The notes under the pieces: generated by a model | What the model was told of the DNA's origin: nothing | Database searches by the model: none | What the model saw: only the letters and a program-made list of their open reading frames with translations | Assembly (NCBI GenBank): GCA_005793375.1 | Contig: SXSK01000324.1 | Location: 1-35,182, forward strand | DNA length: 35,182 nt | Source: Verrucomicrobiales bacterium | GTDB taxonomy: Bacteria > Verrucomicrobiota > Verrucomicrobiia > Limisphaerales > UBA9464 | Reading direction: 5' to 3' | Translations under genes and position numbers: made by a program | Shown: positions 3,361-11,473 of the stretch, in pieces | Layout: the number at the start of each line of letters is the position of its first letter | Position numbering within the stretch: position 1 is the stretch's first letter

Positions 3361-4608
3361 ATGGAAATCATGGAAACGACAATGGATAGCCTGACTCGGC
3401 GAGGCTTCCTGAAACGAACCGGCTGGGCGATGGCGACGGTTGGTTCGGCGCTGGGTTCGATGTCAGCGGAGTCGCTGCAATTGGGTTTTGAGAATGGGGA
3501 GCGGCCATTGGTGAAATATCCCCAAAAGCGACCGCTGCTTCAACTGACGGCGCGGCCGCCTCAATTGGAAACGCCCTTTGGTGTTTTCAATGAGAGTCTG
3601 CTGACGCCCAACGATGCGTTTTTTGTCCGGTACCATTTGACAAATTCGCCCCCGAAAGCGGAGGTGCTGCAGCCGGGAACCTTTCGGTTGTCGATCAAGG
3701 GCAATGTTGGGACGCCATTGAGTCTCTCAATGGAGGAGCTGAAGAAGCGTTTTGAGCCGGCGGAAGTGGTGGCCGTCAATCAATGTTCGGGCAATAGTCG
3801 CGGCTTTTTTAAGCCGCGGGTCGCTGGCGGGCAACTGGGACATGGCGCCATGGGGTGCGCCCGTTGGCGCGGGGTGCGATTGGCGGACGTATTGAAAGCG
3901 ACTTCACCGGTGGCGGGCGCCAAGCAGGTGGTTATTAACGGGCTCGACACTCCGTTCGTTCCTCAGACGCCAGACTTTATCAAGGCGTTGGAAATGGATC
4001 AGGCGTTGGATCCGGAGTTGCTTCTGGCGTATGAGATGAATGGGGAACCATTGCCCTGGTTAAACGGGTTCCCATTGCGCCTGGTAGTGCCCGGCCATTA
4101 CGGCACCTATTGGATCAAACACATTCATGAAATCACGGTGGTCAATGAGGAGTTCAAAGGCTTCTGGATGAACCCTGGGTATCGGATCCCGGACGATCCC
4201 TGTGCCGCCATCGCTCCGGGGACAGCCCCTAGACGAACCATACCCATCTCACGCTTTAATGTTCGATCGTTCATTACCAGCCTTGGGCCCGGAGCGGTGC
4301 TCAAGGCGGGTCAATTGGTGGTGTTGCGAGGCATTGCCTTCGACGATGGACATGGCATCCGCGAGGTGTTGGTCTCGGACGACGAGGGTCGATCGTGGAA
4401 AGCGGCGGATTTGGGTAAAGAAATCGATCGCTATGCTTTCCGGGAGTGGACGCTTCGCTATACACCGACGAGGGTAGGTTCTGCGACTCTCATGGCGCGT
4501 GCCACGAATCGACTCGGGCAATCACAACCGCTCGAGCCGCTCTGGAATCCGGCGGGGTATATGCGCAATTGTGTGGAAGCTGTGGTGGCGACTGTAAACG
4601 CATCATGA
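3361..4608 (+). CDS. Tat-exported sulfite oxidase/sulfite dehydrogenase molybdopterin subunit (SorA-like)
   Basis: Twin-arginine start TRRGFLKR; NQCSGNSRG Mo-ligand Cys motif; WLNGFPLRLVVPGHYGTYWIKHI; C-terminal dimerisation-like domain. Confidence 0.88.
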   Translation: MEIMETTMDSLTRRGFLKRTGWAMATVGSALGSMSAESLQLGFENGERPLVKYPQKRPLLQLTARPPQLETPFGVFNESLLTPNDAFFVRYHLTNSPPKAEVLQPGTFRLSIKGNVGTPLSLSMEELKKRFEPAEVVAVNQCSGNSRGFFKPRVAGGQLGHGAMGCARWRGVRLADVLKATSPVAGAKQVVINGLDTPFVPQTPDFIKALEMDQALDPELLLAYEMNGEPLPWLNGFPLRLVVPGHYGTYWIKHIHEITVVNEEFKGFWMNPGYRIPDDPCAAIAPGTAPRRTIPISRFNVRSFITSLGPGAVLKAGQLVVLRGIAFDDGHGIREVLVSDDEGRSWKAADLGKEIDRYAFREWTLRYTPTRVGSATLMARATNRLGQSQPLEPLWNPAGYMRNCVEAVVATVNAS

Positions 4609-4955
4609 AGACATTTCTTAAACTGGGCCTTATGGGAAGCTTGGGATGCTGGTTGATGGCAGCCGATGTGCCCGTGGAACCGGTGAGAAACGCCTTCGGA
4701 TCGGATCCGTGGACGTTGCCTGCTGAAAAGACTCAACTCAAGGAGGGTGACGGTTTGAAGGCACTCAGCACAAACTGTCTGTTGTGTCATTCGATGGATT
4801 ATGTGTCGACGCAACCGGTGTTGACGCGAGCCCAGTGGACGGCAGGGGTGGAAAAAATGCGCGCCCGTTTTGGGGCGGTCATTTCGACCAATGCGATTCC
4901 GACGATTGTGGAGTATCTCACTCGCAACTACGGCCGTGAAAACCCAAAGCCCTGA
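4605..4955 (+). CDS. Monoheme c-type cytochrome, SorB-like subunit
   Basis: Signal peptide, CLLCHS heme motif, 4-nt ATGA overlap with the sulfite dehydrogenase gene. Confidence 0.8.
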   Translation: MKTFLKLGLMGSLGCWLMAADVPVEPVRNAFGSDPWTLPAEKTQLKEGDGLKALSTNCLLCHSMDYVSTQPVLTRAQWTAGVEKMRARFGAVISTNAIPTIVEYLTRNYGRENPKP

Positions 4956-6920: not shown

Positions 6921-7205
6921 GTGAATGGAACCGCCGCCCAGAATTCTCCTAGCGAGGCAGCACCAACTCTGTGCTCATTAAGCCGTGTCAAGACGGGCAT
7001 GGTGGTGCGGGTGAAGCGATTGATCGCTGCCCCTGAGACCTGTCAACGCCTCCGGGAGCTCGGATTGAATGAAGAATCGATCATTCGACTGATCGCTCGT
7101 CAGGCGACGCTTATCTGCCAGGTGCGAAATGCTCGTCTTGCCTTTAGTGAGACGTTGGCCCGCAGTATCCTGGTTGAATCGTTGGATGCATCTCCGTGCG
7201 CCTGA
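6921..7205 (+). CDS. FeoA domain protein
   Basis: VKRLIAAPETCQRLRELGLNEESIIRLIARQATLICQVRNARLAFSETLARSILVE fits FeoA/SH3-like fold. Confidence 0.8.
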   Translation: MNGTAAQNSPSEAAPTLCSLSRVKTGMVVRVKRLIAAPETCQRLRELGLNEESIIRLIARQATLICQVRNARLAFSETLARSILVESLDASPCA

Positions 7206-8155
7206 CCGAGCCACTTTGGGCTGGAGTGGCGTTGTTCACGGCAGTGATTGGGATCACTTTAAGCTCCTATTGGATTTGGCATCGATCAATCGGAGCTGAC
7301 GCGGCGAAGTTCAACCGAAAGGCGACGTCGTTGCCCCGGCCCCCAGACGAGTTGGGAGAAACCTCGGTGGTTGGTGTCTTGGCTGGGTCAGGATTACAGC
7401 AGACCAATCCGTCGATTCTCAGTCGGGATTTTCCTCGGTTCGATGACGAACGCGTCCTTCAGGGCAGATATCTCTTCGAACGTCATTGTGCGGCCTGCCA
7501 TGGACGCTGGGGAGATGGTCGCGGTGAGTTGGCGGAAGGTATGCATCCCAAGCCGAGAAAACTGACGGCAGGGGTCTTTAAATTTCGCAGCACCCCAACG
7601 GGTTCGCTTCCGATGGATTTGGATTTGGAACGGACAATCCGCCGAGGCATTGCCAATAGTTCCATGCCATCATTCCAACACCTTCCCTCGCGAGACGTTG
7701 ATGCGTTGATAGTATTTGTGAAGACGTTGTCCTCGAACTGGCGACGACAGGCGCAGCCATCCATGCCGATGTCACTTCCAGCCGAGCCAGCGTGGCTTTA
7801 CCTCACAGTCGAGTCCGAGACCCATCGTGTTGTCGGCAAGGAATTGTTTGCCGCCAATTGTGCTCCGTGCCATGGGGAGCGTGGTGATGGTAGTTCCGAA
7901 ATTGCGAAATCATTGGAGGATGTCTGGGGTCAACCCTGTGCGCCCTCGGATCTCCGACACGAGGGACTGAAATGCGGGCCGGAATTGATGGATATTTTCC
8001 GGGTTCTCGTGACCGGCCTGGACGGGACGCCGATGCCGAGCTTTCGCGAGGCTTTCACGGATGAGCAGTTGTGGGATGTGGTGGCCTACATCGCCTCGTT
8101 GCGCCGCAAACCGGCGATGGACGCTACCAAGGCGGAGGAACTGGACGAGCCATGA
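7196..8155 (+). CDS. Diheme c-type cytochrome
   Basis: GTG start; N-terminal membrane anchor; two heme motifs CAACHGRWGDG and CAPCHGERGDG. Confidence 0.88.
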   Translation: MRLTEPLWAGVALFTAVIGITLSSYWIWHRSIGADAAKFNRKATSLPRPPDELGETSVVGVLAGSGLQQTNPSILSRDFPRFDDERVLQGRYLFERHCAACHGRWGDGRGELAEGMHPKPRKLTAGVFKFRSTPTGSLPMDLDLERTIRRGIANSSMPSFQHLPSRDVDALIVFVKTLSSNWRRQAQPSMPMSLPAEPAWLYLTVESETHRVVGKELFAANCAPCHGERGDGSSEIAKSLEDVWGQPCAPSDLRHEGLKCGPELMDIFRVLVTGLDGTPMPSFREAFTDEQLWDVVAYIASLRRKPAMDATKAEELDEP

Positions 8156-10525: not shown

Positions 10526-11473
10526 TCAATTCCGGTGCGCCTTGTGGCACGCATTGCAGGAGCGGGAAAGTCGTTGAAACGATTCGTCCATGTTGGCGGT
10601 GGTGGATCCTTCAGATCGAACAATTCCGTGGAAAACCTGGGCCAACGACTCCGCACACTCCAAGGATTGGCGGTATTCGGGCGCGCGTTGTTTGGGGTCA
10701 TCCGAGCGCAGCAATTCTCGAAGTTGCTCCCAAACCAATAGGGCGTTCTGGGCAGGGGAGTCCCCTGGGTGTTTGGGATCCGCCTTCCACTGATTCTTTT
10801 GGGCCGATTTCAAACGATCGAACCGCTCGTCAATCGCTACCATGAAGTCCACTAATGTCGACGTCGTCGCCACCTCTGGAAGCGGTCGTGGCTTGGAGTG
10901 GGGTGCGAGTCGGGGTGCCTGAAATTGGCCGACGCTCTGGTAGAGACCGACGTATTCTGTGGAAGTCCCGGCTTGCCGCATGAATGCCACCGCTTGATCG
11001 GGGGTCCACCCGGCCGTGCCAAGGCACGCAATGGCTGCCGCTGCGGGGCCGCGGTGTTTGCCATGATGGCAGTGCACATAAAGTGGCCCCGAAGCTGAGC
11101 GAGTCGCTTGGATGAGCTCGGCCACTCGATTTGAAGAAATGCCATCGTAACCAATGGGCAGGTGAATGTATCGGAGCCCACACTTTTTGGCGCTCATCAG
11201 GTCGGGTTTTCCACCGTCCACACTGACCACGGTCGTCACACCCAGGCTGGCTAGTTCCTGAAAGGCGGCATCGGAATCTGGGGAGCTTCCGGAGTAAATA
11301 TTCGTGGCAGCATGGAAGGTATTGTGAAGGTGGACAGTTTTCAGCGGCAGGGGAAAGGCCGTCGTCGATTGGGCGGCGATTGGGTTCCAGGCGCAGAAAA
11401 TCAACCAACAGATCGCGGCCCAACCCCTGGGGTGCTTCGGGAGTGTGAACTGGTTGATACAAGAGGACGGCAT
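10526..11473 (-). CDS. Secreted dual-specificity/tyrosine phosphatase-like domain fused to C-terminal class II c-type cytochrome-like domain
   Basis: Signal peptide; VHCHHGKHRG (CX5R P-loop) at 11051-11074; helical C-terminal region ending in SCNACHKAHRN (CxxCH at 10544-10558). Confidence 0.85.
   Translation of the reverse strand: MPSSCINQFTLPKHPRGWAAICWLIFCAWNPIAAQSTTAFPLPLKTVHLHNTFHAATNIYSGSSPDSDAAFQELASLGVTTVVSVDGGKPDLMSAKKCGLRYIHLPIGYDGISSNRVAELIQATRSASGPLYVHCHHGKHRGPAAAAIACLGTAGWTPDQAVAFMRQAGTSTEYVGLYQSVGQFQAPRLAPHSKPRPLPEVATTSTLVDFMVAIDERFDRLKSAQKNQWKADPKHPGDSPAQNALLVWEQLRELLRSDDPKQRAPEYRQSLECAESLAQVFHGIVRSEGSTTANMDESFQRLSRSCNACHKAHRN

Follow-up and report, generated by a model that had tools for sequence, protein, structure and literature searches.

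The window, by which we mean the whole 35,182-nucleotide stretch of DNA analysed here, carries on its minus strand an open reading frame, as called, of 315 amino acids (10526-11473). An export signal comes first, then a CX5R domain whose P-loop reads VHCHHGKHRG; after a short linker the C-terminal part is helical and finishes with SCNACHKAHRN, the last His of the CxxCH motif lying five residues from the end of the protein. The features of the locus are as follows, with the basis for each in brackets.

10526-11473, minus strand: the whole open reading frame, an exported CX5R phosphatase-like protein with a C-terminal class II cytochrome domain (open reading frame, alignment, AlphaFold2)
11369-11473, minus strand: export signal, approximately residues 1-35, WAAICWLIFCAWNPIAAQ (hydropathy and pattern scan)
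10922-11344, minus strand: DSP/PTP-SAK-type phosphatase-like domain, residues 44-184 (Pfam PTP-SAK and TpbA matches)
11216-11218, minus strand: Asp86 of an SVDG motif (invariant, 93/93)
11144-11146, minus strand: Asp110, candidate general acid (phmmer alignment with Asp105 of TpbA)
11051-11074, minus strand: P-loop HCHHGKHR, residues 134-141, with Cys135 and Arg141 (direct sequence; conserved 93/93)
10529-10870, minus strand: class II cytochrome (four-helix bundle) domain, residues 202-315 (Cytochrom_C_2, PDB profile, AlphaFold2)
10841-10843, minus strand: Met211, putative sixth heme ligand (93/93; aligned with Met7 of cytochrome b562)
10544-10558, minus strand: CNACH, predicted heme c attachment motif, residues 306-310, with His310 as proximal ligand (93/93)

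The export signal was judged by a simple hydropathy and pattern scan, not by SignalP. A hydrophobic N-terminal stretch is present in 93 of 96 homologues, in agreement with the signal peptide proposed in the initial annotation; a lipobox-like motif occurs in 41 of them, and is absent from the export signal of the window protein. AlphaFold2 models the whole protein with a pLDDT of 92.2 and a pTM of 0.84, and its C-terminal helices (residues 206-226, 240-256, 265-286 and 292-313) form the four-helix bundle that structure prediction had been expected to reveal.

The phosphatase-like domain matches Pfam PTP-SAK at 2.6e-7, above cut-off, which places it among the PTP-SAK/DSP phosphatases of the rhodanese-phosphatase superfamily (PF22784), a group in which we know of no described cytochrome fusion. 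With Cys135 and Arg141 kept in all 93 homologues aligned, the original call of a DSP-type P-loop domain with a conserved Cys and Arg holds. The closest solved relative is TpbA (PA3885), a periplasmic dual-specificity phosphatase of Pseudomonas aeruginosa that shares export, fold and the HC-X5-R loop; it is matched at 1e-5 by sequence (phmmer) and 1.6e-10 by profile, and is the top structural match of the whole AlphaFold2 model (E 4.9e-7, TMt 0.76). Its general acid, Asp105 (PMC4409338), aligns with Asp110 of the window protein. However, TpbA is only about 21% identical, carries the loop HCKHGNNRTG rather than HCHHGKHR[GS][PA], and acts on TpbB as a single-domain phosphatase without a heme domain, so that we regard the window protein as working like TpbA without being a member.

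Fused members carry HCHHGKHR[GS][PA] nearly without exception, whereas the P-loop of phosphatase-only relatives is of the type HCxHG[SA]DRTG, and at the SVDG/Asp86 position unfused relatives mostly have NLR or similar. At the position of Asp110 an Asp is found in the window protein and 68 of the 93 sequences, elsewhere replaced by Asn, Ala, His, Ser, Gly or Glu. Directly behind the P-loop Arg, 64/93 have Gly, as does the window protein, and 28/93 have Ser. The window protein thus lacks the Ser/Thr at this position, which does not exclude it from the superfamily; the residue is common there but not universal, PRL phosphatases having Ala. Given the variable Asp110 and the frequent Gly after Arg, turnover may be slow, or the chemistry may differ from that of an ordinary phosphatase. 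The family alignment contains no second Cys column (a 'back-door' Cys) above 40% conservation, so a disulfide switch cannot be general. Among the phosphatase-only relatives, one in genome G563 (L170) has a fused-type P-loop, HCHHGKHRGG, and is followed by a further stretch resembling another copy of the domain in diverged form.

Three independent lines of evidence assign the C-terminal domain to class II, as in the initial annotation. A profile of the domain retrieves solved cytochromes c' from the PDB at 9e-7 and cytochrome b562 at 8e-6; Pfam Cytochrom_C_2 (PF01322) matches 58 of 64 family members (best 4.4e-8), the window protein itself falling at E 0.022 and 16.1 bits against a cut-off of 26.5; and AlphaFold2, given the domain alone, returns a confident four-helix bundle (pLDDT 95.9). 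A profile is needed, since phmmer with the isolated domain of the window protein found no match. A PF01322 search of relatives at 1e-6 was uninformative, returning no matches with control genomes equally silent. In Foldseek the best TM-scores of the isolated bundle, among the matches listed, are to cytochromes c' (1cgo, 0.68; 5b3i, 0.66), with no significant E-value, as expected for four-helix bundles. Class II cytochromes c (c', c556) and b562 share the bundle, and class II cytochromes c also share the C-terminal CxxCHxxxR with which the window protein ends, but these proteins are stand-alone, while here the domain is fused C-terminally to an enzyme domain. The window genome also encodes a stand-alone class II cytochrome (L131, G000:C300:10469-10603), above the Pfam cut-off at 2.6e-5.

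The cytochrome domain has diverged to a median pairwise identity of 30%, and its sole invariant residues are a Met, two Cys, a His and an Arg, the pattern that an axially ligated heme c needs. When the family is aligned by MAFFT and global HHalign with E. coli cytochrome b562, the axial ligand Met7 falls on Met211, and His102 on the CxxCH His, giving b562-like Met and His ligand positions; weak local alignments with b562 do not reach or cover Met211, so this register is supported but not proven. Because the invariant helix-1 Met211 aligns with Met7, the predicted heme is most likely six-coordinate, low-spin and His/Met-ligated (c556/b562 type), rather than of the five-coordinate, NO-binding cytochrome c' type. 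Six-coordinate His/Met hemes are typical of electron transfer rather than of open-site gas binding. On one contig of the window genome are CcsA-type and ResB-type assembly genes, which are what system II heme attachment needs.

We found 93 non-redundant full-length homologues with the same fusion, and these form the main alignment. Cys135, Arg141, Asp86, Met211, Cys306, Cys309, His310 and Arg314 are invariant in all of them, and a 64-sequence alignment has 23 invariant columns that include C135, R141, M211, C306, C309, H310 and R314. As judged from these alignments, conservation is far above chance and the open reading frame is not a chance frame. The whole architecture is conserved and the family is widespread; the 'chimera' described originally is not a one-off. 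About 109 of 345 evenly drawn Planctomycetota genomes, or about a third, have a strong match, a count made after dropping 20 genomes with phosphatase-only matches and including three proteins incomplete at the C-terminus. Among 340 evenly drawn Verrucomicrobiota genomes, the fused form occurs in only three, the window's own included, and phosphatase-only relatives occur in many. Full-length relatives are present in approximately half to two thirds of 34 other genomes of the same family, with a few more in the order. The 80 loci retained from named genomes are nearly all from Planctomycetota and Verrucomicrobiota, plus one from Hydrogenedentota; Rhodopirellula europaea, Limnoglobus roseus, Tautonia sociabilis and Roseimaritima sediminicola are represented in this set. 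The fusion is thus conserved across at least three phyla, and is patchy within Verrucomicrobiota. Apparent copies without the cytochrome in G546 and G619 were rejected as genes cut by contig ends, and a fused frame of 1318 amino acids in G540 is an open-frame artefact, the gene itself being ordinary.

In a tree of 143 phosphatase domains, all 109 fused rows lie on one side of a branch with support 100/94, and to judge from this topology the fusion is old and probably arose once. Two planctomycetal genomes, G537 and G405, form deep and long branches beside the fused clade, and both encode phosphatase and cytochrome as distinct genes lying side by side on one strand. In G537 (L172) the phosphatase gene lies at 1216-1767 and the cytochrome gene at 773-1219, the cytochrome start overlapping the phosphatase stop by 4 bp; in G405 (L171:441-1582) the phosphatase stop lies 83 bp ahead of the nearest likely start of the cytochrome, and this gap holds a GC-rich hairpin. 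Pfam finds both domain types independently in the two genomes, some matches being below curated cut-offs, and both split cytochromes retain a Met in the first helix region. The split forms may precede the fusion or result from fission. Neighbouring genes and gene fusion agree that the phosphatase and cytochrome parts work together, and the split operons are independent support for this partnership. A separate three-part fusion is encoded in G677 (L178:979-2790, minus strand): a sodium/calcium exchanger (PF01699, 9e-53) precedes a phosphatase domain that has diverged (P-loop TCETGRDR), and the CxxCH cytochrome domain comes last.

The computation establishes the two-domain anatomy, the conservation in at least three phyla, the single clade of the fused form and the split two-gene form. 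Our preferred, though still tentative, hypothesis, in line with the redox-controlled phosphatase of the initial annotation, is that the protein is a periplasmic phosphatase-type enzyme that couples its active-site Cys to a redox heme. In its favor, sequence, profile and fold all give TpbA, itself periplasmic, as the nearest solved structure, and the P-loop Cys/Arg and the heme motif are invariant together in 93 full-length proteins; the class II profile and fold matches, the Met211/Met7 alignment, the CcsA- and ResB-type genes, the single fused clade, the split operons and the b561-type genes beside two loci point the same way. Counting against it are the non-universal Asp110, the variable residue after the P-loop Arg, the lack of a conserved second Cys, the lack of a conserved gene neighbourhood, and the restriction of b561 adjacency to two independent loci. 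In such a mechanism, the Ccs (system II) machinery would attach heme covalently to Cys306 and Cys309, axial ligation would be by His310 and Met211, and the heme would trade electrons with the respiratory chain or with donors in the periplasm. Its redox state might control the phosphatase site, or the heme might keep Cys135 reduced; dephosphorylation of a periplasmic phospho-substrate would then track the redox state of the cell envelope.

The main rival, which we consider somewhat unlikely, is that the protein is a redox enzyme and not a regulated phosphatase, its CX5R loop binding an oxyanion or sulfur species and its heme carrying the electrons of a sulfurtransferase, persulfide or oxyanion redox reaction. 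The family's best matches in NCBIfam, below cut-off, are to the Blh sulfur transferase/dioxygenase (56/64 members, best 8.5e-9); the sulfur transferase model TIGR01244 matches 33/64, also below cut-off, and BLH_phosphatase 39/64. A predicted His/Met heme suits electron transfer, and the general acid and the Ser/Thr after Arg, neither of which is universal, are not needed for thiol-based sulfur or oxyanion chemistry. Against this, phosphatases are closest by both fold and sequence, the P-loop HCHHGKHR is of PTP type, and the window protein reaches 19.5 of 85.85 bits for TIGR01244 and 20.8 of 625 bits for Blh, both far below curated cut-offs, the Blh match spanning only about 48 residues. Blh, a bifunctional enzyme with a TIGR01244 domain, has a related CX5R-type domain, but this match is weak and its partner domain is a metallo-beta-lactamase-type dioxygenase, not a cytochrome. 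More specifically, the family might be a new class of heme-c-dependent CX5R redox enzymes, with an oxyanion or persulfide held at the His-rich P-loop (HCHHGKHR) and electrons passing to or from the fused His/Met heme during catalysis; we give this version little credence, although if true, a phosphatase fold would have been turned into an envelope oxidoreductase across Planctomycetota.

Next in likelihood, and improbable, is a phosphatase whose substrates carry pyrophosphate-type bonds or are (poly)phosphorylated small molecules; the heme domain would then be a structural or redox module. Good leaving groups, diphosphates among them, would suit an active site in which the general acid is not universal, the GKHR portion of the P-loop resembles that of Siw14/PFA-DSP enzymes, and 19/64 members match the Siw14-family model Pfam Y_phosphatase2 (best 1.5e-5); however, this match is below the curated cut-off for the window protein, and gene context offers no substrate evidence. 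More doubtful again is a pseudo-phosphatase, whose P-loop domain binds without turnover and which serves as an adaptor bearing an electron-transfer cytochrome: the general acid is variable and Gly replaces Ser/Thr after Arg in most members, but the catalytic Cys and Arg are kept in 93/93 and an Asp is kept at the acid position in 68/93. Least probable is the NO/O2 sensing suggested in the initial annotation, in which an open-site heme of cytochrome c' type switches the phosphatase, since, although the best profile matches of the domain include NO-binding cytochromes c', a divergent quinol-type nitric oxide reductase gene (norB/norZ) adjoins the fused gene in G540 (L183:3082-5001), and c-type heme Cache domains (sCache_heme, DUF3365/Tll0287) have NO-sensor properties when fused to signalling modules (PMC12889525), the invariant Met211 at the b562 axial position argues for a six-coordinate heme, and we reject an NO link through norZ because its adjacency was found in one genome only among the loci searched.

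The sCache_heme proteins likewise join an extracytoplasmic covalent heme, here a predicted one, to a signalling or enzyme module, but they have another fold and their partners are kinases, MCPs or GGDEF/EAL domains rather than phosphatases (PMC12889525). Neither domain of the present family is new; what is new, to judge from the literature searched, is that they are stably joined, and the combination is common. Our searches, partial in their coverage of the literature, found no description of a phosphatase-class II cytochrome architecture, and the initial annotation likewise knew of no described enzyme of this kind. Cys-dependent phosphatase chemistry is usually regarded as controlled by thiol oxidation alone. 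A redox-coupled phosphatase would directly and physically link respiratory or envelope electron flow to such an enzyme, and the pairing suggests an enzyme that is controlled by, or uses, cellular electron flow. The split operons offer a convenient means of testing the partnership in lineages with poorly understood envelope signalling.

No conserved gene neighbourhood was detected across about 80 loci, and none points to a substrate; when the 143 nearest neighbours were searched with Pfam, the only theme to emerge was a pair of b561 genes. At two loci from two phyla, the fused gene is followed immediately, on its own strand, by one of these cytochrome b561-type genes (L022:6005-6727 and L093:1778-2533), a hint only that an adjacent membrane cytochrome could supply electrons from quinol. 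Elsewhere in the window, adjacent genes at 3361-4955 resemble, by eye, a periplasmic sulfite oxidase-type molybdenum enzyme and a small c-type cytochrome, and 7196-8155 encodes a membrane-anchored, diheme cytochrome c-like protein with the CxxCH-type motifs CAACH and CAPCH.
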